A stretch of DNA of 64,000 bases from the NCBI RefSeq assembly GCF_036785885.1, contig NC_092312.1, positions 18,184,001-18,248,000 on the forward strand. The letters run 5' to 3'. The position numbers and the translations under genes were made by a program. Position 1 is the stretch's first letter. The number at the start of each line of letters is the position of its first letter. The stretch comes from Coffea arabica. Taxonomy: Eukaryota; Streptophyta; Magnoliopsida; Gentianales; Rubiaceae. Below, piece by piece: positions 1,309 through 64,000 of this stretch. Under the pieces are notes generated by a model. The model had not been told where the DNA came from. It made no database searches and saw nothing but the letters and a program-made list of their open reading frames with translations.

Positions 1309-3027
1309 ATGTCTGAGCATTCAGCTGCCGGAAGTGCTCCCCTCTACTGCCCCGAGGACACCGATGAAGTGGTCCAATCCCATCCCGACGCTGCGATCCC
1401 CCACAGTCAGGAGCCCGATGATGAGTCCACCATCAACCATCTCTTCGACTCCGAGAGCCACCATATGCCCTCCCCTGACTACCTCCTCCGCCGCCTCTGC
1501 CTCCACCACCTCACCTCCCGCCAAGACTCCATCAACTGGATTCTCAAGGTGGTCTAGTATATACCATATATACACGTCATCTACATTTTTATAGTTTTTA
1601 ATAAAAAAAAAATATATTGTCTACTTGTAATTTAGTACCATAAACTTTTAAGGTTTGGGAAGTTTTAACCGAGGATGTTGTTGGGGGAGCCTGGAGGACA
1701 GGTCCATGCACGCTACGATTTCAAGCCCGCAACGGCTCTCCTCGCCGTCAATTACTTTGACCGGTTCCTCTCCTCTTACCATCTCCCGGTATGCTGATAC
1801 TGGAACTTGGATACGTAGTTTGTGTTTGGTGTAAATAAATACGTACATTGTGGGGACAATGTATTGGTAGTGGTAGTGGATACGACATGGGCGGGTGATG
1901 GTGGGTATGGTTTGATTGCAGGGAAATGGGTGGCAATATCAGCTGTTATCGGTGGCCTGCCTTTCCCTGGCTGCTAAGATGGAGGAACCTCGCGTCCCCC
2001 TTCTCATTGACCTCCAGATTTTGGATCCCACCTACGTATTCGATCCCAATACTGTTCAAAGGATGGAGCTTTTGGTGATGGCCAATCTGGATTGGAGACT
2101 CTCCTCCCTTACTCCGTTCGACTTCCTCCACTACTTCATCTCCAAACTTCCTCCACTCTCTGCTCATCATCATGCCTCTCCACAGCCCCCACACCCTACT
2201 CCTACTGCTATTCACATTTTATCCACATCTTCTGATCTTGTTCTAAACACCATCCGGGGTATTTATTTTTAGCCAATTCGATCAATATTTGTAATTCTGA
2301 ATTATTGTGGTATAACTACTCTTTTCTTTTATGGTGGTACTAAAACTTATTCAATTTATTGTTTCTTTTTTCATTTTGGGTATGTATGGTCAACCAGTGA
2401 TAGACTTCGTGAGATTCTCGCCGTCGGTTATTGCAGCGGCTGCCGTGGTATCAGCCGCCGGGAAGGAATTGGAGTCATTACCTCACACATTTTACGAGAG
2501 GGTGGAAAAAGTAATGAATTTTGTACATTTGTGGTCGTAATTCGAAATTCGCAGTTTTAGTGTGGTTGTTTTTATGATTGAAAGGGAAAAAAAAAAAAGG
2601 AAAATGAAATTATGGCGTACTTTCTTTGCCCTGATTTTGACGTCAAAGTCGAAGCATCGAAAGCTGTGAAAATCTGGTGGTGATTTCTCCTTTGTTTTTG
2701 TTTTTCCTTCTTTGTTGGTCCGGGCGTAATTTTTCTTGGGGACAGGAAATGGTGAGAAGCTGTCACCAACTAATGGAAGAGTATTTGGTGGACACCTGTC
2801 CGAGATCTGACCGTAAAGTCAGGTCAAGGATGCAGATTCTAGCTGCTGCGCCGCCGAGCCCAGTCGGCGTCCTCGAGTCTGCGGCTTGTGTTAGCTGCGA
2901 CACGCGTTCCGAGAATCCTTGTTCGGCGGCCGGGAGCGGGACTATTGGCGCCGCTGAAGAGCATGAGCCGCCGCAACCCAAGCGGCTGCGATCTTCTGTT
3001 GGGGATATACAGGAATTGCGACGCTAG
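1309..3027 (+). CDS. CYCD1: D-type cyclin (CYCD1-like), five exons
   Basis: D-type cyclins activate CDKA to phosphorylate the retinoblastoma-related protein at the G1/S step in the nucleus. Predicted exons are 1309-1548, 1702-1788, 1922-2258, 2398-2510 and 2746-3027. All introns are GT-AG, the joins keep frame, and the product is 352 aa, typical for the family. The Rb-binding motif LYCPE (LxCxE) is at residues 12-16. The cyclin box covers about residues 55-180 and includes NYFDRFL in exon 2 and LAAKMEE at 125-131. A carboxy-terminal cyclin fold follows (SVIAAAAV and ERVEKEMVRSCHQLM), then a basic tail ending KRLRSS. The exon 2 and 3 wording and the overall order resemble Arabidopsis CYCD1;1 more than CYCD3. 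The start chosen is the first in-frame ATG and places LxCxE near the amino terminus as expected. The D1 subgroup is inferred from memory. The D-type call is firm. Confidence 0.92.
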
Positions 3028-11651: not shown

Positions 11652-14600
11652 CTAAAACTGAGCAAACTTAATGGCTTGCTTGGTCGGTGTTGGGCTGATC
11701 TTATAGTAATTCTGCAAGTATTCCCCGACCACTACTTTCTTATATCCGTGATGATTATTGTTGGACTTCCCATCTTTGAGAGGTTCAATCTCAGCTTCTG
11801 AAGGCGGGTTGTAGAACAATGCAACTGAAAAGCGCTCGACATCCCTTTGGGTAACAGCGCGATGCCAACTGCTCCTGAAGCACCCATTGCTCAATATCTC
11901 CATCAGGTCTCCCACGTTGATTAACAACGCACCGACCGGCCACTGGACCGCGAGCCATTTCATGTCCTTGAACACTTGGAGTCCTCCAGAGGCTTCAAAC
12001 TGCACCAAAACGGAGAGGGCACTAGCATCAGAATGTTCAGTTATTCCCAGAGCCAAGTCAGGCCTCGGGCATGGTGGGTAGTAGTTCACTCTGACGTTGA
12101 CTTCGCTCTTTTCCTCGTCGAACTGTTTTATGAAAATTTGTCTGTCTTCTGATAAGGTTTCGGCAAGAGCACGGAGTAACGAATCGCAGATTTTCCTTGC
12201 TTTCTCTACAAATTTCTCCACTGCTTCCCTGCAATTCATGGTTATGAATGTACTCAGAGGTGCTCCGGCCGGGAGATGATAGAAAATTTTCAAGAATGTC
12301 ACGTATACTCAGGAAGCTTATGTGTCTGAGCAGTCCAGGCCAATGACCTTTTTCCCCTCCAATTTTTCTTGAATTTGAAATAATAAATGTCTCTTATAAA
12401 TGTGAGGAAATAAGCAGGGAAAAGAAAAGGAAAGGCACCAAGACGTGTACGTTATATAAGATGAAAGAGTAACAATAGGATTCGATTAGTCTCGCAATGT
12501 TTGTTTGATTTTAACCATGAACCACATTGTTGTATGACTGTCTCGCGAATCAGCTGGTCAGTTAAGTCTAATTTGATAACACTGGCGGAGAATAATCCTA
12601 AATGTTTTAAGTGTGGCACCATCGGTCGCAAGCTACTAACTTAAGTTCATCTCCATTTGTAGGTTAATTGACTTCTTCTATCTTAAACTAGCCCACGTGT
12701 TTCGATTTAAATTGGGTTACCTAAAGTAGATGTATAGTGGATGCCAGCAAGCAATTCACTAATTCCTGTAATATAACTAATATATAAGTACTGTGTGACG
12801 CATATTATACTATTATTAGGAATTGTTAACCAATAATGCAAGAGAGACATGTCATGACCGTTGTTGCCGGTTTGAAAAAGCAGTATGTTTGATAAAATTG
12901 AAATCTGAATTCATTAACTTATTATATTGTTAAATATTAAATTAAATATATTTGAATGTATATTACATTCAGTAATAAGTGAATAATTTATTACTTATTT
13001 TTGAAAATAAGTTTTATTTAAAAAATTCAGTGATATTTAATTTTTGATTAAAAAACGCGTCTGAACATATTAAGATTTGAATCTATTAAATTTAAATGCT
13101 GAATTGGATTATCAAATAAGGTAATATTTAAAAAGGCGAGTGTTAGACAAGCATTTTGCGTTCGCCTAAACAATATGAAAGCCCTCACAAGTTTTTTTTA
13201 GTATTTAAAAATATAAAAATACAATAATAATATTATGAAAGGGTTCTTTTAACCGGTGCCTATCAATCACTCGTTAATATATCTAAATTTTATCTAACCT
13301 ATTATATATATACACATACGGACAATTATGACCCTTTTTAGCATTTATATACTTTTTCTAATTAATCTTACATTTTCAAAAATCCAACCCCTAAAGTACA
13401 TTTTAACGAGTGGCTAATGCACAAGACTTTTTATAAAAAAATAAAAAAAATTATTAATAAATACAAGAAATTGATAAAAAATTAAGAAAAATTACAAAAC
13501 AAATATTATTGTTATCAAACGCAACTCTGACCCACATACTAGTCATTTAGGCTTAGTTTGGGAGTTTAGGACAAAAAACAAAATAATTATATTTTGACAT
13601 CAAAGAAACAAGTTGTGAATGCTTTTATTTTATATTTTTCCCAAACAATTCAAAAAATAAATGAAATTCTTCCTCGAAAAAGACTGAACAATAATAAGGA
13701 CTAGAAACAAAGATAAGAATAAAGAGTAGAAAAATTAAAAGTTGAAACTTAAAGAAAATGCTCAAAATGCAGAACTCCTAGAAGTCCAGGCAATGGCGGA
13801 GTAATAAAAAATTCTCAAAGGGGGGCAAAATTAACATATATTTTTTTCTTAATTTTTTAAAAAATAGGACGTGTCAGTATTCACGTAACTAGTAGAATTA
13901 ATGCATTTATTTTATAAACAACGTAGAAAAAAAATACTCTAATTTACTCATAAAATTATCATTTTACTTGAAAAAGCATACAAATCCATTTAAAATTGCT
14001 CACAACGGGTCTTCATGGTATGATAATGATGTACAATGCTTTCATTTTAATGCGTAAAATACATCTTTTTCAATGTAATTAGCTAAACAATCATTAATTA
14101 TATAAGATTCTAAATGAATGAGTTAAAAACTATACGAAGCTGCAAAGGACTAAATGAGTGAAACATATGACAAACAAGGCATAAATTACTGCAACTTTCA
14201 AGGGAATCAAATGGCTAGATTATAGATTTAGAAATTTTTCAGTTGTTTAATACTATTTTTCATTAAATTCCAAAACTTGTCCAATGCATACTTCACTTCT
14301 TAACATTTCAGTGGGGGCAAATACAAATATTTTTCTAAATTGCAAAGGTAATAAGGAAAATTTTGGAGGGGGCAGTGGCCCGTGCTGTCCCACTCCTCAT
14401 CTACCGCTAGTTTGGGCAGTCAGTCCTGAACGGCAAACAACACTTGCGACCCATTTAATTTAACAGTAAATCTTATATACACTGACAATCAATAGTGTAT
14501 ATATCATCACCGTTTGATTCATATGTGTAAAAATTAAATTTTAAATTTAAATTTTCAACAGCTGTCATTCATCTAAATGGTGATAGTGTATATATTATTT

Positions 14601-15405
14601 GTTAGTGCAGAAAAGATTAATCCTTAATTTAAACCAGCCTTTATGACATGAACAATAGTCAATCAAAAAGGACAACCCTTTCTTTGTTGATGAGTTATAT
14701 GTAGAATGTTCAATGTCATTGATCAGGTCAAGAAACATAAGAATGTCCAGGGCAACGATGCTGTTTGTAGATATGTCTTGTTTCTGGGTTGTTGTTTCCA
14801 CAGAAGAAGTCAAGTTACCTGAAGTTCGGAGGATTTTGAGGCCAGACACGGAGTCCTTGGGTAGCATCCCTGGGAGCAGCCTTCATTGTTAAACGATCGA
14901 TCCAATCCAAAGGCTGATCTTCTGACTTCACAAAGTTCCGCCCATACCCCATGTTGTCAACACTAAGATATGATCCAACGCTAGCTTTCTTTTCTTGAAA
15001 TGACAGCCCAAAGAACCCTTTCACCACATCCTTCACCTCATCCAAAATTTTGGGCTCTATTCCATGCTTTTCGATCAAGAACATACCCCAATCCTTAGCA
15101 GCACCGGCCAACTTGGTTAACTCCCGGTCACGGTCCTCCAAATCGTCCCCCAATTGAATTTTGCTCATGTCTATACAAGGAAGAGGATCAGGAACTTCGA
15201 TGTGGCTAATTTCATGCAGCTCTGAAGATGGTGCAGCGATTGGATCAGCTGTTGGCGACTCCCTGATGAACCTCTCGGGCAAGAAATCGAGCCGTTGACG
15301 CGCAAGTTCCTGCACCACAGGCACTCTAGAATTTCGTAGCACGCCGTTTTGGTCTATGAACTTGGCTTCATGGAAAGCTACATGGTTGTTGATGTCCATG
15401 GCCAT
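11652..15405 (-). CDS. 2-oxoglutarate/Fe(II)-dependent dioxygenase (DOXC, SRG1-like)
   Basis: Soluble plant dioxygenases of this class oxidise small metabolites (flavonoids, alkaloids, hormones) using 2-oxoglutarate, O2 and Fe(II). Predicted exons are 15405-14819 and 12228-11652, joined in phase 2 within an Arg codon, giving 387 aa. The amino-terminal DIOX_N domain ends near residue 195 (GMFLIEKHGI, WPQNPPNFRE). The catalytic 2OG-FeII_Oxy domain follows. Iron ligands are H261 and D263 (GITEHSDAS) and H318 (SSWHRAVT). The 2-oxoglutarate-binding R328-x-S330 is present (ERFSVALFYNPP), as is NYYPPCP. All catalytic residues are intact, so it looks functional. The single 2.59 kb intron (12229-14818) contains several small transposons. 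Most relatives have two or three introns, so intron loss is possible. The substrate cannot be told from sequence. The wording is closest to the SRG1/norcoclaurine-synthase-like group from memory. Confidence 0.9.
12887..13120. mobile_element. MITE, TTTGATAA family, copy 1, inside dioxygenase intron
   Basis: The ends are inverted (GTTTGATAAAATTGAAATC on the left, GGATTATCAAATAAG on the right). The interior shares ATATTTGAATGTAT and ACGCGTCTGAACATATTAAG-like boxes with the copy at 31460-31711. Non-coding. Superfamily uncertain. Confidence 0.6.
14464..14623. mobile_element. 160-bp Mutator-like MITE inside dioxygenase intron
   Basis: It is flanked by the 9-bp direct repeat TTAATTTAA (14455-14463 and 14624-14632). 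Inverted ends carry TATACACTGACAATCAATAG on the left and the matching GATAGTGTATATATTA arm on the right. It is homologous to 48334-48485. Target duplications of 9-10 bp point to the Mutator superfamily. Confidence 0.75.
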
Positions 15406-16910
15406 TTTTCCTTATCAGAGGAACCGATTATCTTTTTTATGTGCTTGTCTTCAGCTAATGGCGGCGTAGGGCTCGGTAAATTCTCAGCACTCAGCAGCTC
15501 TGTAATGGCAATTCTCCAAGTGTCATCACTTAGACGTTGACACGTGACTGCTAATGAATATTGGTACACCAACCTTTTGTAATTGTTAAACTCAAACAAT
15601 TCATCTTTACTGCCTTCGTACATATTGCTTTGCAATACACTTTTGGTTCTATACTACCTAAAAGTTTACTATTAACTTACACTATTTATTTCATTCAAAT
15701 GACTGATAATATTTTTGGACGACAAGGATACCATCAACTAAAGTTTATCAGGTGTACTTATCATTCAAAGAAATACTCATTTGATTAATTAAAGTTTTTA
15801 TTTTATTTTATAAAAATAAGAATTATTTTATTAATAAAAAATATTAAAACCACATTTATTATACCTCCTGACCCGGCAGTGAATCTGGCAGAGGGACTAG
15901 GTGAACGGCCAATCTAAAAGAGAAATTTCCTATTTTGCTTCATTATTTAGATGACATTTGGGATTTCAATCTTTTCAATTACTGGGATTAGTTCAATGAC
16001 AAGAGGAAGCCTCTCAGAGTTCTCCTTGCCGTCATTCAAATTTTGGGTTTAACCGCTGGGGGATAGAAAAGGTGTGGCGTGGAATAAGGATTAAAAAAAA
16101 GGTTAATTACATTTACCTCCCCTGAGGTTTGACCATATTACCAATCAATCCCTGTAATTTGTCCAAATAACGGTCTCACCCTTTGAATGATCAAACGTTT
16201 AACAAAAACCCCCTTAATGCCGAAAATGCCCTTATTGAGGCCATGTTGCATTAAAAAAAGAACATATTTTTATGTTATTAACCCTGAAGTAATCCAAAAA
16301 AATAGAAAAAAGTTTTTGCTTATTATTTTATAAAAATCATATCTTTGCTTCCATAAATAGTTTTGAATCAATAATTATTTTAAATCTTAAAAATGAATAT
16401 TAAAAATTAGATAAATTGAAAGAAAAATAAAAAAGAAGCAATTATTTTAAATCCTCAAGTATGGTTCGAATTTGTGGTTCAAGGCATGTTGCGGAGAGCA
16501 CAAGGCATACACAGCCTATTCTAGTTTCGCAAGTTTTCAGCTACAGGCGTATGTTGCCCCATCCTCCGGCCCGTTTTAAGGCGGGGGAAATATTTTGCCC
16601 CGCGCCCCATTGCCATTCCTGATCACTTCAACAATACTGAAAGTCGAACGAAACCCGGAGAAGCATTAGAACGTCCGATTTATGTGGGCCGAAATCATCG
16701 ACCAATTTGGTGAGCCCAACAAATCTCAGACTGTTGGCTGTTGCCAATTAAGAGCCCAGTGGGGACACCTTCCAGTCTACCGTAGGTCTTGGCATTTACA
16801 AGAGCGTCACCGTTTCACCGCAATAAAATGAAGAAACAAACAGGACGCTGAAGCAAAATTGTGCTACTACTTCGTTAACTTCATGACCTTCTTACCCTTA
16901 AAAAACTAAT
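15406..16910. other. Intergenic region upstream of the dioxygenase gene
   Basis: The first few hundred bases should hold the dioxygenase promoter. At about 16100-16250 there is a GGTTAATTACATTTACCTCC-type end typical of plant Mutator-like elements, but no matching second end was found nearby, so it is probably a solo or truncated end. No gene is seen. Confidence 0.45.
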
Positions 16911-30997: not shown

Positions 30998-33900
30998 CTA
31001 CAGCAATCTTTTGTGCCTATAACAGGCAATAGCAACCCCATACAAGAGAAGCGCACCAGCAATACCGCCACCAATCATCCGGAGAAAATTTTGCGTCCCA
31101 GATTCTCTGTCACCCCATGCATCTATGTGAATGTTCATCCCAAATATTCCTTCCACAGTTATGAAAACTCCCAACACAAGGGTTGCCGTCATTATCATAA
31201 CCACCATTTGCAGCAGTTGGTTACGTTTATCATCCTGCACGATGTTCACATAATCTTCTGTGTCATCTATGTGCTCCCTCAGCTTCCAAAAATAAAGAGT
31301 GTTAGAACCCTAGTATTAACATACCTTGCTACGCTGGGGGTGTAACACTGTGGAAATCAAACTTACAAGCAAAACTAATCCAAATATCTCAAATGCATGT
31401 GAATGCAATGCTTTCTACATCCATATTATTTTCTAAACTCGGCATGGACCATGACGGGCATTTGATAAAACTAAAATTTGAAGTTTCAAATCTAAAATAT
31501 GAATATGTTAAATCACTGAATTGTTAAGTACTGACATCCTAACATTTGAATGTATTTAATATTAAGTGATATGTGAATAGCTTTTCACTTAATTTTTGGA
31601 GTAAGTTTTGTCTAGATAATTTGATGTTGTATTTTTTATTATCAAACACGTCTAAATATATTAAGATTTGAATATATTAAATTAAATTGTTAAATTGAGT
31701 TATCAAACAAGGCATCGGGCCATAAGACAAGCATTCAAACAGGAGACGGTGACTAGAGAAACAAGATGAATGACATACTGTGGATAACTTGTTCAATGTA
31801 CCATCAATCTGAATGAAATATGCTTCCAAAAGCATTTCGAGATCTCCCACATGAAGTTGTTTGCTTCTGGAACTGCGCCTTGAATTAGTATGGCATAGAC
31901 TACTTTCAGCATCAACCAAATTAGAATCACAAAATAAATGTTCCTGGTGGTTGTGTAATTGTTGAATACCTGCATCACAACTGTTGGGCCCTCAATTAAG
32001 TAGAGATTTCAGAGGGAAAACCTTATACTTATCAGGATGAGATATTTGACAATCAAGCAGGAAGCCAAAAACAGCATGTTTGAGAAAATGCTCAATGTAA
32101 AGCATAAAGTAGTGCTGAAGCATGGGGAGATAAAAAAAAAAAAAAAGAGTTATGTATCATACATGTTTGGCTGTTTAGCTTCTTCATCAGTTGTGGCAAA
32201 TTCCTCATCGATAGAGGAATTTGCAGAATTTTCAAGTTGCCATTCTATATGTTTGTCAGTCAGATACATCCCCGCCATATCTTGATCATCATTCAACAGA
32301 CTTTCTAACTCATCCCTAACCTGGAGACAAAGGTCTTTGCATCATTTGTCAGGAAAAAGATACCATAATGGTTCATCTGATATTGAGCAAAACTATACTA
32401 CCACTAAAAAGTTGAAAATAGCATAATGGTAGATGGTTTGGAAGAGGAGGACTGTGGGATCAGTACATATGCCCAACTCAGGGATTTTACTAGCGGTCAA
32501 GAAAGTTATTGTATCAGAGACAGAGAAGCTGAGAAACAATCATCAAGAAAGCTGCAAAGAAGAGCCAACAGATTTCAAAAGAGATAAAAAGGCTCGAAAC
32601 TCGTGCTGCATCTGTAACAGAGAAAAGATCCCCAAGTTAAAAAGAAATCTCCTGCAGTTTTCTCGATAATGATCCTGGCTGCCAATTTTGCACAACCAAT
32701 CGGGAGAGTATAAAACCTGCTAATATAGTTTGAGGGAGGTCCGGGAAACCAAATTCGTTTGCAGCTTGAGTCCAGTGAATTTAACAAGTCTAACGAGGGT
32801 TTAAGGAGTTTCTGCAACTACATTAATGACCTGAGGTAATACAGGTATACTCACATTACGAAATACAATCAGTTCTTACGTTCACAAAATTTTCTAAATG
32901 TTAGGCTGGGTTAAATGGTGCTTAAAGAGAGAATAACCCCGAATTACTCCCGGGTACCGACGGGAAAGCACTCCACTACGTGGGCTGCATATCTCATGAA
33001 CTCAATGAAGCAAATACTTTTGCCATAAAAACACAATGAAATTAGTGAGTTTATACAACATCACATCCTTGAATTACTAATATGAACAAAGAACAAAATA
33101 TACAAGTGGTGAATTGAGTGTAATCCTAAAAATAGTCTCGAATCACTTATTGGAGTTACAAAGCTCTTTAAAAATGAAGCATATAAGAAGTGTGGTTTGG
33201 ACCATTTTGAGAGGCATTTGTCAAGGTCAAGATAAAAATAGAAAATCGTCATGATAAATTTAACCAAACAATCTTAAGTTAATTAAATATTGATTTTTCG
33301 TTCAAAACTAATTTGAGAGCCAAAGGAAAAAGGATGATTCAGGTAGTAATATTAGAAATTGTTTGAATTTCAACCTTTTGCACACGTTTGGTTAATGGAA
33401 TCAGTCGGCCATTGATTTGCTGCACATGCTCTAAGTTGAGGCTACTAATATTGGAGGTCAGTTTATTAAGAGCAGGACGAACTTCTTTCTCCAATGCCCC
33501 AACCTAAAATTAAACCACACAACAATTAATTAAAAAAAAATTGTCAATTCAAATCGCAGAAGTTTTCGGAATTAGGGTAAATATTGCATGAGATGAATGC
33601 AACAGAATTCACTTCATAACCAGAGTGAAGAATGGATATTTTTACTTCATTCTCCAAGCAACTGCAAGCAGACTCAAGGCATGCCTCCAAGGCAACAAAC
33701 TCAAGTGGAAGTAGCTTCGGTCCGTCCTTGCTCTCTGCAATATGTCGTTTGCTACCTCCTAGACCTTCATTCATGTTTAGGGGGCTTCTGGAACAACTTG
33801 AAGCAATAAAGGCTCTTGATTGAGGCTCTTCCAAATTGTAGAAGTCCACATTGTCCCCCTTCAAGACCACATCAACAATAGTGATAAATTTATTTTTACA

Positions 33901-35038
33901 TCTGTAAAAGCTTCTTATGTATATTCTTGTAAAATACTTTTTCATCAACTACTTTTGATCTTTTTAGAGGATTCCGTTTTTGACTGCTCATTAATACTAT
34001 TGGTTTCTTAACACTCTGCCTCAAACAGGATTCCAGATTTCACTTTGAGGGTTTAGAAGGTGAAGTTTAAGCCGAAGTGTTTGTATAAAACCTCTTCAAT
34101 TCCTATAGTATCCGTCTTCCCTAAATATATGAATGCAAGTGAATTCATCAATTTTGATTTAAAAATCCAGAGAAAGTTCCTTACAACTCCAGAAATTCAA
34201 CCGGAAACTATGCTTGTAATATACTAAAAGCCAAAACAGTTGGGCTTGCTCAATTGCTATGAAAGGCAGTTGGCAATGCGTCACGCACAATACATCTATC
34301 AACAAATAGTTCAATGCAGATTATCAGCACTGTCCCAATCACCTAACACAGGCCAAAAGCATCCGTGCTGGAACTTATTTGGCCATCAGACGTCAAAGAT
34401 ATGGCCATCATTGCCGGTGATTTTGATACTGATGCAATGTGGCTACTCCCAATTGAATACCATTTTCTGAACATGTTAGGTTTCTAAAAGTTGCTGGGCA
34501 AGTGTACACAAGATTTCACATAAAAAAAGAAAAACTATTTTAAATGTTCCCATGGCTTGTGGATGAAACTTTCTACACTAGTCAATGTAGGAACGATAAA
34601 TCAACAAGTTGAGCAGCCAATCAGTCACAAAGCACTAGTGCAGTAGTAGACATGTACCAACGGGGTGAGGACAGCTTGGTGGTGGCGGAAGATTTTCAGG
34701 CGCAGCTCCTCAACGAAGGGAGCAACAGAAGGGTCTTTAGAATTGAGCAAGAGGACCTCATGGGCAGTGATAATGGCCTTGATATGCTCGAGGCTCACCA
34801 CAATAGCCCGCTCCCGGCTGAGCAAGGTGGCCGGGTAGCCGAGGAGCGGGTCCAGAATACGAAGATCCCGGGTCTGCAGACCAGTGCGCCTCATGATTGC
34901 ATGCTTTCCTGCTTCCAATACTTCGGGGGGATTCCCTTCTGAATCCAGCAAGACCCAGGTACGCCGAGTTCCCAGCAACCCCGCCTTCTTGGACTTCTTT
35001 GGGGTTGAAAAATCGACGTCATCAACATGATCAGCCAT
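30998..35038 (-). CDS. MRS2/MGT-type magnesium transporter, gene A of a tandem trio (canonical GMN)
   Basis: MRS2/MGT proteins are CorA-like Mg2+ channels (pentamers) of plasma membrane, vacuole or organelle membranes. Predicted exons are 35038-34658, 33858-33646, 33503-33375, 32320-32163, 31980-31779 and 31282-30998, giving 455 aa. The amino-terminal cytosolic domain has MRRTGLQTRDLRILDP, ERAIVVSLEHIKAIITAHEV and a long helix (LNLEHVQQINGRL). The conserved REHIDDTEDY (363-372) precedes TM1, which ends in the pore signature G409-M410-N411. TM2 (GGGIAGALLLYGVAIA) and a basic tail follow. Everything needed for transport is present. Compared with genes B and C, this copy has an extra phase-0 intron (33859-34657) after codon 127. 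The acceptor of intron 4 (CCCAACAG at about 31988-31981) is the one that keeps frame. The subclade within the MRS2 family is not settled by eye. Confidence 0.88.
31460..31711. mobile_element. MITE, TTTGATAA family, copy 2, inside MRS2 gene A intron 5
   Basis: Inverted ends TTTGATAAAACTAAAATTTG and GAGTTATCAAACAA. The interior boxes ACATTTGAATGTATTTAAT and ACACGTCTAAATATATTAAG are shared with 12887-13120. It sits wholly within the intron 31283-31778. Confidence 0.6.
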
Positions 35039-36529
35039 AGCAGCAGTTTGGGAGTTGAATCAGGAATTAATCCTCCTCAGTTGATCCACAACAGGATTAG
35101 GAATAGGGTGTCCACCCCCGAAAAATCACCACCCCTATAAACTACTACTACTCTACTGTTGAAGAAAACATGTACAAGACAAAAAGGGAGCAGGAGAAGC
35201 ACAAGTAGCAGGTGAAGGTTCAGTTGTTTCACCCCCAGACAGGCCTACTCAGTGCTTGCTGACCACATCATCAGTTTGATAGAGCAGACGAATTTTACAG
35301 GGACAGTCATACTCGGGGCAGGGGGTGACTCCAGAGAATATGATCCGTTTTAACATCTGGACACAGACTTCCCACTGAGGCGTCCAAGGATTTGTGACTC
35401 TGACCAGCGATTTCTAGGCACTATCCTCTTCCAATCTAATACACTGTTAGTATTCACACGTAAAGGACAATAGAAATCTAGTACTCATCATTTATGAACA
35501 AGTTGTACCTTGTTAACAACAATTGTTTCTTATTGATGCAAAAATCTTTTGAAACTTATCTCCATATTGCTTCATTCACACACTAAAAAGACGGTTAAAA
35601 CAGTAACAAGAGAAAAAGAAAATTTATGAGTATTGCTTCGACCGAATTCTGATAGGAGGGCCATATCAATGCTGGTGTTGAGTTTGGATCTCGTATCTGT
35701 GAAACTAAGATGCCATTCCTGGGTTGTGAATTTAGTTGATCTGAGGACTTGACAGCCCAACTCATAAGGCCTTTAGCCCTCCTCATACTAGGTGCTGGCA
35801 AACAGCAAGGTTCAATTCTGGTAATTCCCAAAGCAATAAACTAACTGGTAGTATCTCATTCGTCATGGCAAATGTCTTGTTTCGAGTCTCCAACTTTCCT
35901 TTTTACTCTTTCTTTTCCTTTGTCAGATTTAGAACGCGTTTTAAACCAAAACAAATAAATTAAAAAATAATTAACTAAACTCTTGTAATCATTTTTCAGT
36001 GCATTCTGTGTAATGCTTATCTGCTATGCATGTAATACAAGTTTTTATTTTACTACAGAGAGTTAAGTTGATCTAGGCTAGCTGACATGTTTGTTCCATC
36101 ACTTCATTTTTTTTTTTTTTTGCAAAATTCTTTTCTAGGAAAATTCTAAATTGAGGACTCACAAATTCCGGCTTTTGCATTGCCAAGCCTGAGCCATATA
36201 AAACGAAAATGGGAAAAAAAAAAGGCTGAAGTATATATACATACTCCAAAACTATGGAAGTTTTTTTATCATCTCCTTTTCTTTTAAAATTTTTTATTGA
36301 AGAAAAGTCATGATACGAACAACAGCACTAGGTCCATTGATTTTCCTTCCTCTAACATGGTTTTGAACATATAAAGTGACCTCTCCAAATAAATACACAG
36401 TACATAGGATTCCAGCAGTAACCGCCGCCGGAGGAGGGGGGGGGGCGCATGGGAGCAGCTACTGATTAGGATGGAAGTATGGAGGGGTTATGCATTCCTT
36501 ATAGACACAAAAAAGACACCATCAAGCCA
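35039..36529. other. Spacer between MRS2 genes A and B
   Basis: Contains the presumed promoter of gene A (near 35040-35200) and the 3' UTR of gene B. A homopolymer T run lies at 36107-36121 and a 9-11 G run at about 36436-36446. No other gene seen. Confidence 0.5.
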
Positions 36530-38825
36530 TCACATTAATCCCAAGTGCTTATACCAGGAAATTGCAATCAAATATAGGACGATGCTGCAAGCTGTTCCGC
36601 CGCCGCAGAATAAGATGAAATAGTAATTGGGAGGATCATTCTTTTGGAAGAGACTAAAGTCGTGGATATTCATACTAAAAACTCCTGTCACAGTGGTAAA
36701 AGCCATGAGCACAACGCCTGCTGTCATGAACAACACCGCCTTTTGCATCATTCTGTTCTGCGTGTCATCCAGCATGATATTGATGTAGTCTTCCGTGTCA
36801 TCTACGTACTCCCTTAGCTTCACAGGACCAGCACGAGCATTTTATAAGTATTGACTTAAAAAGCTAATTAGTAGTATTATGTTCTTGAGAGACTCGTGAG
36901 ATCTTGTAACCAAAAACAAGAAATGAAAGAAAAAAAAATGAAGTTTCAATTCCCCAGATTGTAGATTGATATGCAGAGACGACAAACTGGCAAACGTATT
37001 ACTACAAGGAAAAAAAATACCGTTTTATCTTTTAAGGTTAGTTGTAGTACCATTAGTTGCGTTATCTGCAGTGCCCCATTAATAGAACCCTAATACTGAA
37101 AGCCCCAAAAACCCTTGGGTGTTCCTTGGTAAACTTTTGAGAGCCTAATTTTCCAAACTTTTAAAGGGTATTTTCATTTTAAATTCGTCCTTGAAAGTAG
37201 AATTTCTCACATACGCAGACGCACAAGGAAGAGGATTGAATGCCACGAGGGAAATAAAATTCTTGTCTAGATGCAACATGTACAGTTATAGTCTTAGAGA
37301 TGCTTGCACCATTCTAGAATACACAGGTTTCGATTCCGAATGATCCATCAATATACGAACTTGAACTTGAAAGCCTATGATTGACTTTGGACAACTCTTT
37401 AATTTGCAATAATGCTTTCGAGGGATATATCAGAGTTAGCGAGTTGAGTTACATACAGTTGATAGGCCAGATAATGTTGCATCCACCCGAACAAAGTAGG
37501 CTTCCACGATTATTTCCACATCCTTCACACCGAGATGCTTGCTTTTGCCTATCATGTATCTTCTACTGCTAGTATGGATTGCAAATTGGCTTCCTCTGCT
37601 GAGAGAACTGGCTGTGCGGATTGCCCGTTTCTGGTGGTGCTGTTCGGCAGGGTGAAAATCAACGCTGAAACGGCTGGAATTCCCTCTGTCTTGCGCTAAC
37701 GTTTCACCAGAAACCCTGCTGACTAATAAGATAAAAGAGAATTAAGAGATGCCAAAGCTTGAAAGAAGGCAGTAACAGCCGAAAGCTTGGGACGAGCATG
37801 TACAAAGCGTAACGGGTAAAAGTTGAAATGTATAGGATGTAAAAGAAACATCCCGTGCCTTTCATCCAGGACTCTCTGCACAATTTCATGTTTTATGGAG
37901 GATAGGGAAGAATTCCTAAGCCGCCTCTCAACTGCATCCTTGTTTGTCAGATACATCTTAGCCATATATTCGTCGTTATTCAGCAATCGCTCTAACTCAT
38001 CTCGCAGCTGAAAATTAATTAAGACATTTGCACTGCTCCTATTAGTGATCTACGAAACAAAATTATGAATATTGACTGGGAAAATTAAGGAAGAACTATT
38101 ACCTTTTGAACACGTTGGAATAATTGGGCTAACCGGTTTTTGATCCTGTGCACCCGCTCCAAATTGAGGGTGTTAATTTTTGAAGTCACTTCATCCAATG
38201 CTGGATAAGCTTCCTCCTCCAAAGCCGTTGCCTGCAGATTTCAATGCAAAAAAAAAAAAAAAAAAAAAAGGGTCGATACAGCGCAAACCATAAAAGGAAA
38301 ATAAGGAAAAAGAACAATTCTCTGGCGGGGAGTATTAACCTCTTCGTCCAAATAACCGCAAGCAGCGTCCAGGCAGGCTTCTAATACTACAAACTCAAAA
38401 GGAAGAAGCAGGGGTGGTCCAGTATTATCTCCATTTTGTCCCCTCGTCAATAGCGACTCTTCTTCCCGTGACAGTGCTTCGGTAGCCTGGTGGTGCTGCA
38501 TGATTCTGTGTCGGAGCTCTTCCACGAAGGGCGCGACGGAGGGCTCTCTGGAGTTGAGCAGGAGGACTTCATGTGCCGTAACTATGGCTTTGATGTGCTC
38601 CAAATGGACGATGATGGCCCGTTCCCGCCCTATCAAAGTGGCCGGATACGAGAGGAAAGGATCCAATATTCGAAGATCAAGGCCAGACAGGCCAGTCCTC
38701 CGCATAACACCGTGCTTCCCTGCTTCCACTATATTTGATTCGCCGGTTGAGTCCAGTTGTAGCCATGTTCGGACCCCCGTGGCCTTCTTTCGGAGATGAT
38801 CGCCTCCTCCACTGATGCCAGCCAT
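36530..38825 (-). CDS. MRS2/MGT-like protein, gene B of tandem trio, SMN in place of GMN
   Basis: CorA/MRS2-like membrane protein. Predicted exons are 38825-38340, 38231-38103, 38007-37850, 37718-37457 and 36817-36530, all GT-AG, 440 aa with no stop or frameshift. It has MRRTGLSGLDLRILDP, ERAIIVHLEHIKAIVTAHEV, the 43-codon helix exon (129 nt, the same length as in genes A and C) and LREYVDDTEDYIN before TM1. The pore signature at 393-395 reads Ser-Met-Asn (VFSMNIH), where the family has Gly-Met-Asn. This is a single GGT-to-AGT type change. TM2 (FCGGGTACSIVLYLIAI) is intact. GMN is essential for Mg2+ transport in well-studied CorA/Mrs2 proteins, so function may be altered. An in-frame upstream extension exists, but the MAGISGGG start aligns with the starts of genes A and C. 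Confidence 0.85.
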
Positions 38826-40996
38826 AGAGCGCTGGAAGAAGGAAAAAAAAAAAGAAGAAGAAGAAGAGAATTTCAAATCCAAGAAAGCAAAAATGTAACA
38901 AAAATCAATACTACGCTTAGAGAGTGACTTTTGAGGTGGGAGGGAGGTAGTACCTGATGACCACCACACCACAGCCAACAACTCACAAAATGTGAAATAA
39001 GCCAGCCAGGGCAGGCGAAAAGAACCACCTGAAATTGAAATTGAATGCTTGCAACAATAATGTCGAGGCCATCATGCACGATCGAGCATCTAAATCATGA
39101 CGTCAATGTTCATGCTATCTTGCTGATTAATTTATGGGAAGATCCAATTGACATGTGCTAACTAACCCAACTCATGTACGAATATTATTTCGAGGTTTAC
39201 CACGCCCGTCCACCTGCTAACGTACGAATATTATTTCTGGGTGTTGCAGACATCACACTCTCACTTTTTAGAACCTGCAGATTCGCTGCATGGTGACGGT
39301 ACCTTTGTAGTGGCGGTTACTGCCGGACGTAATATCATCACCAAGTGTTACTCTCCATTTATTTATTTATTTATTTTGATTCTGGAAATATGGTAAACAG
39401 CTACTGGCCTAAGTGAGACTAATTAAAGCCAACTAGCTGATGGATGTAAGTCAAGCTTAGGAAGTTTTGGCACGATTACTTCAGTTTCTTGGGCTAGGAA
39501 AATGGATGCGCAACGGATCTCCTGTCCCATATCCTGTGTCATTTTTTGTCCCACTTTTTATTATATTACTATTTCTCCTTCATAAACATCATGTTTTAGT
39601 TCTTTTTTGTTTCCTTAAGATCCAATAACTATAAATTTAGTAATACACAAAATTTAACAAACTCAAAAAATCAAAATGCATAAAAAATGAGATTTTTTAT
39701 AAATTTTCTGCTGCATTTTTTAATTTTCTATTATATATTATTTTTTTGAAACTGTTGTATTTATTTTTTACTGAATTTATAGTTATTGGATCTTAAAGAA
39801 ACAAAAAAGAACTAAAACATGATGTTTACGAAGGAGAAATAGTAATTTAATAAAAAAACGGAAGAGAATGGCACGGGGTGTGGGATAAAAATTGCGAAAT
39901 GGATGCCATGCCAGCACAAGACAATTTTTTTTTTTTATTTATTTATAATTTTTAACCCTTCCACTCCTCCCCATACTCTTCTTATCTCCCCGTTCTCTTT
40001 TTTATCTCCAACTGCCAAGTACAAGATTCCAACATTGAACCTCACAACAACACGACAAGGAAGAGTCTAAGAACCCCCGGCCTGACCACTGAGCGCATGA
40101 GAAAAAATTTCGATTAATTTGTGAAGTTAACATTCCGGATGTGCCATATGCACAGCTCAAGATCGTCTTCTTTCGTGTACACTGCACAGATATGCAAATG
40201 CGAAGGATTCCTCAACAATTACATTGCTGAAAGGAAGTCTTGCATTGCTCATATTCTTGGCCTGTGTACGTTGCATCACCTTTCCATTTTTTTTTTTTTC
40301 TCAATAGAAAAAGGGGTTTGAAAGTGCATCGTCTTTCTTGCAATTATTTTTTTTTTATGCCGATGAACTGGATATGAGGGAAACAAAAGACAAAGCCCAT
40401 GCTGTTTATGAGATCATTGGGTTAACACAAGTTGCACAGCAAACCGATCGATGTTGTTGGTCTATCGTAAGAGTTTAATGTTTCGTACGTTCGACTTTTA
40501 TTGTCTTTAGTTTTCAGCATGTATGTTTATCGATTCTGTGACCCACTAAATAATTTCGACAGAATTGATTCCGTGTGTCTAAAGTGTGAGAAAGTACGTA
40601 CAAAGTGCAAATTTGGTTAATAAAGCAGGAGGAATTCAACTTGAAAGCTAGATGGCTCTCGTCAGTCTTTATGCTGTACACGAACCGAGTATGCGCACGT
40701 TCATGACTCACAAGATCGATTCATGCACATGTGAAGTTGATTTTGTTTTCTGAAGAAAGGTTGATCAGTTCCTTTTGTTGCAGGAAAGACGTCCCTCCTG
40801 CATGCCGCCAATCAAACTTTATTATTACTTCTTTTTTTCAATTTATGCTTGGAAAATTGACCATATACTTTGTGTCAGACAAGAAAATTGCCTTGCCTTG
40901 CCTTTAAATATGAATAAAAAGATGGGGAAAAAAGTTGCTTCCATTTAAATAATGTGTAATGAGGTACGAACCCTTGTGGAATAATACCATAACTCG
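38826..40996. other. Spacer between MRS2 genes B and C
   Basis: The first part should hold the gene B promoter (A/G-rich tract at 38840-38870). One inverted-repeat element lies at 39523-39887 (separate entry). The remainder shows no gene. T-rich runs occur at 39927-39945, 40287-40302 and 40347-40357. Confidence 0.5.
39523..39887. mobile_element. Foldback MITE with ~120-bp terminal inverted repeats, copy 1
   Basis: The left arm (TGTCCCATATCCTGTGTCAT, then ATTACTATTTCTCCTTC and AACATCATGTTTTAGTTC) is repeated inverted at the right end (GAACTAAAACATGATGTTTA, GGAGAAATAGTAATT, then GGGTGTGGGATA). The arms are about 120 bp and cover most of the 365-bp element. It is related to 49785-50135. Non-coding. 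No clear target duplication was read. Confidence 0.8.
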
Positions 40997-43173
40997 TCAA
41001 TGCAGCAATCCTTTGTATCTATACAGCCACATTGCAATTATGTATATACATATAGTACCAAAGCTGCCGGCACAAATCATCCACAAGAAGGATTTGTTTG
41101 GAGGTTCAGTGTCATTGAACAAATCAATGTGAATGTTTATAGCCAAAACTGCGTCTACGATCATAAAACAAGTCAATGCTACGGTTGCTGTCATCAGCTT
41201 GATCACCATCTCCATCAGGTTGTTCAGTTTGTCATCGAGCATAATGCTGATATAGCCTTCAGTATCATCTACATACTCCCTCAGCTATCAATCAAAAAAA
41301 CAAGTAATCAGAGAATGCTGAATATATATACATATATGTGCACATTTACGAAGATGAAATTCATCAGCAATTTTTGATAGATGGCACATAATTGTAGCAC
41401 ATATACGCCATCGAACTGTCCTAGGGTTCGTTGTTTTACGCAAATTTTTGCCTAATCAAACCTCTGTTTATGTTCGATATATTTAGGAAAACCATTGACG
41501 TGGGTATTATTAGTAAAGTATAAGAGCCAAAATAGTTGAATTGACACAAAATTATTAACGACGGAAGTCCTTTTAACATTTCAGCTACGTACAGTGGATA
41601 ATCCGTTGAGCGTAGCATCAATACGAACAAAGAATGCTTCCAGAAGCATTTCAAGATCCTTTACACTTTGACGTTTGCTTCTGTCACTGCGTTTGCTACT
41701 GGCATAGGTTGCTTGGCTTTTTCTGCTAAATACTGAACTAGCAGCGTCAACAAATTCCTGTTCTTGAGCATGATTGGTATGAAGAAGATCAGTACCATGT
41801 CTGGTGGAACCTTCACTGTTTTCTGTCAAGTTGTCAGCTGGCGTCCTGACAACACAAGAATACTAGCTGAACAAAGAATTCTAACGATGGAAAGGAAATT
41901 AATAAGATCCCTTACGGACCCAAATTCAGCAGAAAAATTTAAAAGAACTCACTAACAAGGCTTTGAAGGCAAGTAGTCAACTAATTTCTAGCGCTAGCAA
42001 TTGAAAAGATTCACTTGCCTATATTCTACGTCTGACAGAATTACTTCGTTATTCTTGTCATCTAGTTGATCTTCGTGTGCACAATAATTTTGAAGCTGCT
42101 GTTGTAGTTGGTTCTCTGTCAGATACATCTTAGACATGGGGTCATCATCATCTAGCAAACGCTCTAATTCATCCTTCACCTGAAATAATGCTTTAGAATC
42201 CCTTCAAATGAATGGAATATAGACAAATAATAACCAGATGATAAGCTTCATGCTAGTATATATTCTAAAGTTTTAGAGCTTAGACTAGCTGAAAAAAAAA
42301 AATACGATCAGTCAAAGCAAGTTTCAAATTCAAAGCATTACTTAACTCCCAATACTGTAAAAGTAAATGAGGACCACCCAAGGGAGAAGTGGAGAACAAA
42401 ACCAAGCATCTAGCAGGAGTATCAAATAGAAAGAAGTGATTTAGAGCACTCGACCTTTTGAACACGATTAGTTATCCCGATTAAGCGGCTCTTAAATTGG
42501 TGCACACGTTCCATGTTGAGAGTAGAGATGTTCGAAGTTAACTCATCAAGTGCCGGATAAGATTCTTCCTCCAATGTAACTGCCTGGCTTGAAATGAAAC
42601 ATTCAAGGCCAAAAATAAACAATTAGTCAAATTAAACTTGACAAGCGAACCAGAAAATGGACATCATCCTCGAAAAATCAAAAGCGAGTAAGTATATGGT
42701 TTCTTTGCCTCGTTGTCCAGCCAAGTGCATGCCTCGTCGAGGCAAGCCTCCAAGACAACAAACTCGAGGGGAAGACGCTTCCGATCATCCAAATTTTCTC
42801 CTCCAAACTCGGCCCCTACTTCCTCTGGATCGATGCTATCATGGTGGTGCAAGATTTTTTCACAAAGCACTTCTGCGAAGGGCGCGACAGCGGGGTCCTT
42901 GGAGTTGAGCAAGAGGACTTCATGAGCCATAATCACAGCCTTGATGTTCTCCACACTGAATATTATGGCTCGTTCACGGCCCGAAATGGTACATGGATAC
43001 GAAAGATCAGGGTCCAGAATACGCAGATCTCGGCCGGTGATACCTGTTCGCCGCATAATAGCATGCTTCCCTGCTTCCAATATATGGGACTGACCGGACG
43101 AGTTGAATAGAAGCCATGGACGGACCCCCAACGGCTTCTTCCTGAGTGGGGAGCTATTGTCAATATCAGCCAT
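40997..43173 (-). CDS. MRS2/MGT-like protein, gene C of tandem trio, AIN in place of GMN, GC-AG introns
   Basis: Predicted exons are 43173-42709, 42583-42455, 42179-42019, 41845-41593 and 41284-40997, giving 431 aa in one frame. Family blocks are present (MRRTGITGRDLRILDP, ERAIIFSVENIKAVIMAHEV, LDELTSNISTLNMERVHQF, VKDLEMLLEAFFVRIDATL). The pore signature at 384-386 reads Ala-Ile-Asn (VLAINIHI) instead of Gly-Met-Asn. The conserved pre-TM1 block is REYVDDTEGYISI, with Asp-to-Gly and Asn-to-Ser changes. Introns 1 and 3 have GC donors: GAG^GCAAAG at 42708 and the textbook AG^GCAAGT at 42018. The intron 1 donor sits exactly where genes A and B have GT. No other donor keeps the frame. The gene could be a divergent transporter, a regulatory subunit, or a gene early in decay. 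Confidence 0.82.
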
Positions 43174-63393: not shown

Positions 63394-63852
63394 CTAGCAG
63401 GACCCTTCAGGATTTTCATCAGCTCTACCATCACCTTCAAACCCGCCACCCATCTCACACACCCTCTCCCACATGCTCTTCTCCACAGGCACCACCGACA
63501 ACCTCGGCTGCCTGAACAGGCCACATCCTTGCAGTCCACTCTCTTTCTTCATTTCCCCCAAGTCCACCGGCCTCCGCATTTCGCCAACCGCCTTCACATC
63601 CACCGCACTATCACCGCTATCATCAGCGTACCATTCACGGACAACAGAGACCACACCCACCACGCGGCGGGCTTTGGAGCCGGAATGGTAGAAAAAGCAG
63701 AGATCTCCAGTTCTCATGGACTTCATATTCTTCTGGGCTTGCTTGTTCTTGACGCCGTCCCATTTGGATACACCACCATTCGCTGCTTGGTCCTCCCATG
63801 ACCACTCCCCTGGCTCCGTTTTTAGCAGCCAGTATTGTTTTTCTTTACCCAT
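63394..63852 (-). CDS. EVE-domain protein, THYN1-like (thymocyte nuclear protein 1 family)
   Basis: EVE domains are PUA-like folds. The vertebrate homologue THYN1 is nuclear and binds modified cytosine in DNA, while the plant role is unknown. The single open exon gives 152 aa. It starts MGKEKQYWLLKTEPGEWSWE, the family's hallmark amino terminus, followed by SKWDGVKNKQAQKNMK, GDLCFFYHSGSKARRVVGVV and VDVKAVGEMRRPVDL. GLFRQPRLSVVPV and WERVCEMGGGFEGDG complete the domain. Relatives are about 150-165 aa, so it is full length. The last residues (RADENPEGSC) are less conserved, and a further small exon cannot be excluded. The start is the first ATG, and the window ends 148 bases upstream of it. 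Confidence 0.9.
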   Translation of the reverse strand: MGKEKQYWLLKTEPGEWSWEDQAANGGVSKWDGVKNKQAQKNMKSMRTGDLCFFYHSGSKARRVVGVVSVVREWYADDSGDSAVDVKAVGEMRRPVDLGEMKKESGLQGCGLFRQPRLSVVPVEKSMWERVCEMGGGFEGDGRADENPEGSC

Positions 63853-64000
63853 TTCTGTGCTGTGAAAACTTCGTAGAATTTGAATTTCTTAGGATAGGGG
63901 CTGGGAATTTTGAGGGTTGGATTCAGGAAAAGGGTGATTGGACCTAAAGCACTAGCGTTACTAGTGGTATTTGTTATGGCGGGAAATCGACGACGGCCCC
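63853..64000. other. Promoter-proximal sequence of the EVE gene, cut by the window end
   Basis: Only 148 bases upstream of the EVE start codon are visible. No TATA box or other motif stands out. Confidence 0.4.

Follow-up and report, generated by a model that had tools for sequence, protein, structure and literature searches.

A tandem trio of MRS2-3-type genes with GMN, SMN and AIN filters in Coffea arabica, probably kept as working proteins

Gene structure

The window, that is the whole stretch of 64,000 nucleotides analysed here (Coffea arabica NC_092312.1, 18,184,001-18,248,000), contains three tandem MRS2-3-type genes, denoted A, B and C, which lie head-to-tail on the minus strand, the stop codon of gene A ending at 30998 and the ATG of gene C standing at 43173, both ends as given in the original prediction. 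The full open frames claimed there were recovered as well: the predicted spliced models give 455, 440 and 431 aa, and the exon sizes agree, with a 129-nt exon in all three genes followed by one of 158, 158 and 161 nt in A, B and C. The features are as follows (positions in the window).

30998..35038, minus strand: gene A, MRS2-3-type paralogue; 6 exons, 455 aa, GMN; from spliced model, Pfam and homeolog
33375..33503, minus strand: gene A exon 3, 129 nt, from spliced model
32163..32320, minus strand: gene A exon 4, 158 nt; 3' junction uncertain, since annotated P0161 and P0162 disagree at the exon 4/5 junction
30998..31282, minus strand: gene A exon 6, with TM1, filter GMN and TM2; Glu at -4 from the filter Gly
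36530..38825, minus strand: gene B; 5 exons, 440 aa (436 aa in P0001), SMN in both homeologs
38103..38231, minus strand: gene B exon 2, 129 nt, from spliced model
37850..38007, minus strand: gene B next exon, 158 nt, GT donor; alternative of 149 nt with GC donor (P0001)
36530..36817, minus strand: gene B exon 5, with TM1, SMN and TM2; 12 of 24 conserved TM1 and filter positions altered
40997..43173, minus strand: gene C; 5 exons, 431 aa, AIN in both homeologs
42455..42583, minus strand: gene C exon 2, 129 nt, from spliced model
40997..41284, minus strand: gene C exon 5, with TM1, AIN and TM2; 15 of 24 conserved positions altered; Asp at -4 from the filter Ala
42707..42708, minus strand: GC donor of gene C intron 1, GAG/GCAAAG; GT at the matching intron of canonical coffee MRS2-3
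42017..42018, minus strand: GC donor of gene C intron 3, TAG/GCAAGT; AAAG/GTGTGT in canonical coffee MRS2-3

The model of gene C thus requires two GC-AG introns, its splicing being predicted. For gene B, the annotated protein P0001 is without four residues of our model, so that the shorter exon with its GC donor would be implied.

Filter motifs and the homeologous trio

The filter codons read in the window, GGG ATG AAC (GMN) in A, AGT ATG AAT (SMN) in B and GCT ATA AAC (AIN) in C, agree with the motifs first reported, but the proposed stepwise loss of GMN does not describe them, G to S in B and G to A plus M to I in C being separate changes. The states are not nested, because B and C replaced Gly by different residues through different codon changes, and the C4 homeolog of gene A, whose filter is GIN, lost Met independently by its own M to I change. 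A filter of the form G-x-N is accordingly found in gene A (GMN in the window, GIN on C4), and is lacking in genes B and C (SMN and AIN in both homeologs). The filter Asn (+2) is kept in all 177 relatives in which it was located and in 11 of 11 trio-lineage rows.

The homeologous trio was found by genome search at C4 18.381-18.393 Mb, with open frames and in the same order, all donors being identical between the homeologs and every acceptor retaining AG. A 200-kb stretch of C4 (18.04-18.24 Mb), searched by position from the CorA-like homeolog pair L001/L002, held no trio sequence. An origin of SMN and AIN in assembly error, named beforehand as a possible refutation, or in faulty annotation has next to no probability: the same motifs are carried by the second subgenome, SMN occurs in P0002 (named C. 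eugenioides), and AIN occurs in P0122 (named C. eugenioides) and P0123 (named C. canephora). No support for such an error was found, and assembly error is excluded by the same trio standing open and in the same order on the homeologous chromosome. Among the 120 matches listed, there was no C. canephora protein for gene B.

Family and descent

All three proteins match the Pfam MRS2-like family PF22099 (A 126.3, B 106.6 and C 110.7 bits; cut-off 27). For CorA PF01544, A and B fall below the cut-off of 27 with 24.2 and 21.9 bits, and gene C has no match at E<=0.01; this is a weak test, as many of the listed GMN-type MRS2-3 proteins are without precomputed PF01544. The closest proteins among the matches listed are mostly annotated as MRS2-3. 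Within the genome, and tested with gene C only, the trio is closer to MRS2-3 than to other coffee MRS2 genes: the first exon of gene C matched the C1/C2 (MRS2-3) loci at 62-64%, with the best bits outside the trio, against 40-42% for other full-length-type loci, 47-54% over 57-72 residues for the C5/C6 and C1/C2-distal loci, and up to 61% over 44 residues for six short dispersed fragments.

Canonical plant MRS2-3 (coffee C1/C2; C. eugenioides P0139) resembles the trio in PF22099, in exon boundaries (the 129-nt exon and a phase-2 intron after the next exon are common to both) and in two C-terminal TM helices. Its six-exon plan in coffee is that of gene A, while B and C, with five exons, are without its first intron; it keeps GMN with mostly Ala at -4, and its identity with B and C is only about one half.

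In a tree of MRS2-3 rows only, the trio and the Cinchona protein P0163 form one clade (98/96) with long branches. A recent, Coffea-only triplication was considered and rejected, because A groups with the Cinchona protein (100/100) and dS between the paralogues is 1.35-1.82. The B/C split is of uncertain age: each of the four trees with B or C holds just one of the two, as a lone row on a long branch where the midpoint root falls.

Selective constraint

Between the homeologs, 46 indels were counted in 8189 noncoding bp and one (9 nt, in frame) in 3987 coding bp, where 22.4 were expected (Poisson P 4e-9). Non-synonymous changes number 13, 10 and 11 in A, B and C, against 26, 25 and 25 expected from the noncoding rate, and homeolog dN is 0.0099-0.0124 in the trio versus 0.0092 in canonical MRS2-3. 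Codon models, which were home-made fits over 391 gap-free codons, gave omega of 0.24, 0.26 and 0.34 on the single-gene stems of A, B and C, with omega=1 rejected on each, and a higher value of 0.38-0.48 on the shared B+C stem (free fits, pooled tips). Since the homeolog split, omega is 0.53 in A, 1.01 in B and 0.55 in C (pooled 0.52-0.67), not different from 1, so that recent relaxation is possible. The branch model is only marginally better than a single omega (lnL -5163.9 vs -5170.2, six extra parameters). The free model reached lnL -5163.9 in one run and -5164.8 in another, and two constrained fits exceeded their free model; given this run-to-run spread, lnL differences under about 1 unit are meaningless.

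These figures bear on whether the trio is decaying, with pore constraint relaxed after duplication and frames merely unbroken so far. The long protein branches, the GC donors and the altered exon-4 donor in gene A, the M to I change in one homeolog of gene A, and the recent omega would all suit such a course. The strong depletion of indels in coding exons, the stem omega, a dN close to the canonical MRS2-3 value, and the presence of the A lineage in Cinchona stand against it, and we judge decay unlikely from these sequence comparisons. The recent loss of function offered among the original explanations meets the same objections, although the recent omega leaves it some room. A pseudogene reading, also considered, is disfavoured by coding indel depletion and stem omega.

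Pore helix

The altered filter described in the original prediction is real, and the rest of the pore helix, which was absent from that description, has changed too. Relatives here are the best 120 matches listed per protein search, and the conserved-column test used 170 of 178 non-trio proteins, eight having been removed by hand as over-long, fused or grass variants (P0038, P0041, P0049, P0097, P0109, P0143, P0164, P0185). At positions conserved in canonical relatives, TM1 plus filter is preferentially altered in C (15/24 vs 49/197, P 0.0005) and in B (12/24 vs 49/197, P 0.015), the soluble domain and stalk being better preserved in both; the same test found no such preference in gene A (P 0.44). 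In the codon model, faster TM1 change is borderline on the C stem (P 0.06) and not significant on B (P 0.34), and A shows the opposite trend.

Position -4 from the filter is Glu in the A lineage and Asp in the C lineage, and is acidic in 0 of 177 relatives (177 of 178 non-trio proteins could be located for the -4 and +2 counts; P0038 could not). Two C-terminal TM helices are indicated in all six trio copies by hydropathy peaks of 2.0-2.4 (TM1) and 1.8-2.2 (TM2). Predicted structures of C and B show helices with low confidence (mean pLDDT 59 and 57), and the low-confidence model of gene C resembles solved Mrs2 structures.

Discussion

In the yeast Mrs2 filter, every single-residue replacement reportedly impaired the protein. 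Published plant MRS2 genes already include AMN, GIN and AIN filters. Monocot studies (PMC4613352, PMC9948656, PMC7529347, PMC6345045) describe rice OsMRS2-4 and -5 (AMN) and OsMRS2-8 (GIN), maize ZmMGT6 (AMN), banana MaMRS2-4 (AMN), sugarcane SsMGT7 (AMN) and SsMGT8 (AIN), and wheat TaMGT1A/B/D (AMN). As in coffee, Gly and/or Met is replaced and Asn kept, with a precedent for AIN; these are other plant lineages, and SMN is not among the filters described in the passages covered. A tandem MGT pair is reported in sugarcane R570 (PMC6345045). Among eudicots, grape VvMGT8 has the filter GIN, with the Met to Ile change also seen in the C4 homeolog of gene A, but it is a single gene, tandem duplication being reported absent in grape (PMC9047265). 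Arabidopsis MRS2-8 and MRS2-9 also have an altered GMN, but are described as pseudogenes (PMC13048270), whereas the coffee frames are intact in two subgenomes.

The original prediction took GMN as essential for Mg2+ transport, which is overstated: a bacterial mutant deficient in Mg transport grows again with banana MaMRS2-4, whose affinity is below that of two GMN relatives (PMC7529347), and maize ZmMGT6 rescues such a mutant less well (PMC9948656), while rice OsMRS2-4, -5 and -8 gave no complementation of a yeast mutant (PMC9948656).

From its sequence, the trio probably encodes functional proteins whose ion handling has changed, and not dead copies, a changed ion and a regulatory role as subunit both being possible. 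We give an even chance to channels that have been maintained while their selectivity was reduced or altered. The trio would then go back to an old tandem expansion of the MRS2-3 gene, which encodes a channel of the CorA/MRS2 type; frames, family match and filter Asn have been kept, and the pore helix near the filter has been remodelled differently in each copy. Each protein would still build a two-helix pentameric cation channel, whose differently lined filter may carry Mg2+ less well and with lower selectivity; new residues close to the filter, acidic in A and C and hydroxyl in B, would perhaps make up in part for the lost Gly/Met geometry. Beside canonical GMN MRS2-3 (C1/C2), such channels would provide a further route for divalent cations, of low conductance or different selectivity. 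The weak Mg uptake sustained by AMN relatives supports this channel reading; the failure of the rice AMN and GIN proteins in yeast weighs against it, as do the reported impairment of yeast Mrs2 by filter replacements, the recent omega, the higher omega of the shared B+C stem, the marginal gain from the branch model, the borderline or null TM1 codon tests and the low-confidence structural models.

Its main rival, which we hold to be somewhat unlikely, makes B, C and the GIN form of gene A poorly conducting or non-conducting subunits of mixed pentamers with MRS2-3 or A, which would tune or damp Mg2+ flux. The better-kept soluble domain and stalk of B and C fit this, and a canonical GMN partner is present in the same genome; furthermore, paralogous CorA-type subunits have a precedent in the heteromers of yeast Alr1 and Alr2, whose formation may modulate activity, though these two belong to the plasma-membrane branch of fungi and have a long N-terminal domain (PMC12720413). 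However, acidic residues were gained near the filter in A and C rather than a plain block, and B and C share only about half of their residues with the canonical proteins. The same acidic residues might instead, together with the Thr residues that B has acquired, make up a new ring of ion-coordinating groups in place of the Gly/Met part of the filter; pentamers, homomeric or mixed, would then select not Mg2+ but another ion, such as Mn2+, Ni2+ or Al3+, and we regard this as quite improbable. These three ions would be relevant to Rubiaceae on acid soils.

GMN is the hallmark filter of the CorA/MRS2 channels. With three different filters preserved in tandem, further pore-helix changes and a GMN/GIN homeolog pair, the coffee genes would amount to a natural mutant series, which could probe what the filter selects, whether MRS2 channels act as mixed pentamers, and whether acid-soil plants make use of such variants; if the variants turn out not to conduct, they would identify MRS2 paralogues as regulators.

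Gene models and splice sites of the trio

The three genes are homologous and keep open frames, and their spliced models are as follows.

43173-40997, minus strand: gene C, most upstream of the trio; 5 exons, 431 aa
38825-36530, minus strand: gene B, between C and A; 5 exons, 440 aa
35038-30998, minus strand: gene A, most downstream of the trio; 6 exons, 455 aa

The 129-nt exon that the original prediction had ascribed to all of them is present in the three models. Canonical coffee MRS2-3, located on C1 and C2, has six exons as A does (read from genomic DNA), and its first intron is absent from B and C. GC donors occur as follows.

42707-42708, minus strand: gene C intron 1; GT at the matching intron of canonical coffee MRS2-3
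42017-42018, minus strand: gene C intron 3; AAAG/GTGTGT in canonical coffee MRS2-3
37857-37858, minus strand: gene B intron 3, in the model of the annotated protein P0001 only; GT in canonical coffee MRS2-3

Gene C aligned with the NCBI-sourced proteins P0121 and P0122 across all 431 residues, including both GC junctions. The exon 4/exon 5 junction of A exists in three versions (our model and the A-lineage proteins P0161 and P0162), its placement being uncertain; at 32153-32165 A apparently lacks the canonical exon-4 donor context (GAAAG/GT in MRS2-3), an upstream CAT/GTATGA donor is seemingly used, and the next acceptor is disputed between the annotated proteins. No further clear trio-type copy was found in the window by tblastn with A, B, C and the canonical C. 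eugenioides protein P0139. Other open frames, which by eye presumably resemble an EVE-domain protein, 2-oxoglutarate-dependent dioxygenases and a cyclin, lie at 63394-63888, 11652-12308 and 14815-15411 (minus strand) and 1916-2272 (plus strand).

Homeologous copies and the altered filters

Coffea arabica is allotetraploid. In the genome searched (1.198 Gb, 131 contigs), the window corresponds to C3:18184001-18248000, and a second trio lies at C4:18381116-18392843 with the order and strand found on C3; the two chromosomes are read as homeologous, and we infer that the copy on C3 is of canephora type and the one on C4 of eugenioides type. The translations of the three C4 copies contain no internal stop, all donors are identical between the trios, and AG is retained at every acceptor, with a changed neighbouring base at that of B exon 4. 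The C4 filters are GIN in A, SMN in B and AIN in C. Assembly error, which had been named as a possible source of SMN and AIN, is ruled out by this open second trio, in which the homeologs of B and C carry the same tripeptides.

As for annotated proteins, B is 99% identical to C. arabica P0001 (named MRS2-3), with no difference at 436 aligned positions; P0121, a named C. arabica protein apparently placed on C4, corresponds to the copy of C there and is one residue away from C. eugenioides P0122; and the C4 copy of B matches, by eye, C. eugenioides P0002 except at one exon end. Between window A and C. canephora P0162 there are 28 differences over 427 positions, of which 26 lie in residues 128-162, where exon annotation differs. 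Among the matches listed, 176 of 186 distinct proteins have GMN within the last 120 residues; the ten without plain GMN are P0001 and P0002 (SMN), P0121-P0123 (AIN), P0161 and P0049 (GIN), P0164, and two proteins with a different kind of C-terminus, P0038 and P0097. P0049 is from Eragrostis curvula, and P0164 (Paspalum notatum, annotated at 779 aa) consists of two consecutive MRS2 units, GMN then AMN, which suggests that a GMN gene stands beside an altered copy also in grasses, or that P0164 is a fused annotation of tandem genes.

History of the trio

In the tree, the trio and the Cinchona A-like protein P0163 form a single clade (98/96), in which A groups with P0163 (100/100) and B with C (99/97, though long-branch attraction between these two may contribute). 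The latter grouping is independently supported because both genes lack the first intron, and by the GC donor if the P0001 model is right. With B, C or both omitted, A and P0163 still group at 100/99 or 100/100; the A lineage is therefore older than the Coffea-Cinchona split. B and C appear only in Coffea among the 120 matches listed per search, which does not imply absence elsewhere.

Changes in the filter and pore helix

The filter could be placed in all 11 trio-lineage rows and, among the 178 non-trio proteins, in 177; Asn at +2 from the filter Gly is invariant in all of them. Position -4 is Ala in 169 of these 177 non-trio proteins, Val in 4, Thr in 3 and Cys in 1; it is Glu in the A lineage (window A, P0161, P0162 and Cinchona P0163), Asp in the C lineage and Thr in the B lineage. 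B has also gained Thr at -7, and the Thr at -14 (177/177 non-trio proteins) has become Gly; by hand alignment, -14 corresponds to T427 of CtMrs2, where an Ala mutant is tolerated in yeast. Columns conserved at >=95% in 170 canonical proteins number 242, of which 238 fall within named regions.

Conserved columns changed, by region
TM1 and filter (24 columns): A 7, B 12, C 15
Soluble domain and stalk (197 columns): A 43, B 49, C 49
TM2 (14 columns): A 4, B 4, C 7
Loop (3 columns): A 1, B 2, C 1

The canonical rows P0139, P0112 and P0066 show 0/24 changes in TM1. With positions taken as independent and P values uncorrected across genes, the TM1 and filter excess reaches significance in C (P 0.0005) and in B (P 0.015), but not in A (P 0.44), in the C4 copy of A (P 0.20) or in the Cinchona A-like protein (P 0.48). 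In a home-made codon model (eight sequences, 391 gap-free codons), the higher TM1 omega along the C stem (0.59 vs 0.31) is of borderline significance (P 0.06), faster TM1 change on the B stem is not significant (P 0.34), and on the A stem the trend is reversed (0.11 vs 0.25, P 0.09). B and C might act as subunits modulating canonical pentamers, a reading that we consider rather unlikely.

The predicted model of P0121 has a mean pLDDT of 59, with values of 82-87 in stalk blocks, 56-57 in the filter region and 68-77 in TM2; it comprises an N-terminal domain, an 84-residue stalk/TM1 helix and a TM2 helix. In a Foldseek comparison with solved structures it came closest to CtMrs2, yeast Mrs2 and human MRS2 (E 1e-4 to 6e-4, target TM-score 0.53-0.57). 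The two C-terminal helices are also seen in the model of B (P0001), whose mean pLDDT is 57; both predictions are too weak for pore geometry to be read from them.

Selective constraint

Changes between homeologs (counts small) and non-synonymous changes expected at the noncoding rate
A: 13 non-synonymous, 6 synonymous; dN 0.0124, omega 0.62; expected 26 (P 0.003)
B: 10 non-synonymous, 3 synonymous; dN 0.0099, omega 0.99; expected 25 (P 0.0005)
C: 11 non-synonymous, 8 synonymous; dN 0.0109, omega 0.37; expected 25 (P 0.001)
Canonical MRS2-3: 10.5 non-synonymous, 6.5 synonymous; dN 0.0092, omega 0.47; expected 28 (P 0.00007)

Noncoding divergence in the same C3/C4 stretch is 187/7575 sites, and that of the trio's introns 81/4432 (49/2643, 15/931, 17/858); at this lower rate, plain arithmetic gives about 57 non-synonymous changes for the whole trio against 34 observed. 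A clearer signal of constraint than the substitution counts is the depletion of indels in coding exons, where 1 in 3987 bp (9 nt, in frame, in B) compares with 22.4 expected (P 4e-9) from 46 in 8189 bp of noncoding sequence.

Constraint is also long-term: in the codon model, stem omega is 0.24 for A, 0.26 for B, 0.34 for C, 0.48 for the shared B and C branch and 0.19 for the canonical gene, although the gain of branch omegas over a single omega of 0.295 is marginal (lnL -5163.9 vs -5170.2, six extra parameters). Neutral dN/dS, proposed with the original prediction as a per-branch check, is rejected on the three single-gene stems (omega=1: A P 4e-8, B P 3e-8, C P 0.003), but not on the recent trio tips, singly or pooled, where omega is 0.67 against 0.41 for canonical tips. 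That B and C are genes in slow decay, to which the tips would be open and the stems and indels are not, seems to us improbable.

Other MRS2 and CorA loci

An MRS2-3 N-terminal piece (query 71-114, 44 residues; open frame 75 aa) matched equally at six dispersed sites, a pattern that resembles the capture of part of an exon by a mobile element that then spread it.

C1:11146543, C2:26343427, C12:56667729, C15:28592585, C16:31144663, C21:3818133: dispersed MRS2-3 fragments

A second MRS2 tandem array lies at C5:3888015-3942290 and C6:4045063-4096353, with five N-terminal matches on each; its partly read locus L042 looks like an MRS2 clade other than MRS2-3, which we take to be MRS2-2/7-like. The genome search gave five CorA Pfam matches, four of which make up two homeologous pairs with about 98% likeness (L001 on C4, L002 on C3, L003 on C17, L004 on C18) and show no tblastn link to MRS2-3; the L003/L004 exon reads ...LFGINVDG, GIN thus occurring in another CorA-type gene.

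Precedents and functional readings

Plant MRS2 genes without GMN are already known: sugarcane SsMGT8 has AIN like coffee C (PMC6345045) and grape VvMGT8 has GIN like the C4 copy of A (PMC9047265). In the open-access literature searched, no work on coffee magnesium transporters, MRS2 or MGT was recognised among the titles listed, and SMN together with GMN and CorA gave no match; as far as that search goes, the tandem trio with different filters, SMN, the acidic -4 and the GMN/GIN homeolog difference are new. The AMN proteins MaMRS2-4 and ZmMGT6 complement more weakly (PMC7529347, PMC9948656), and no complementation was seen for OsMRS2-4 and -5 (AMN) or OsMRS2-8 (GIN) (PMC9948656). There is about an even chance that B and C are maintained channels, whose selectivity would be reduced or altered.
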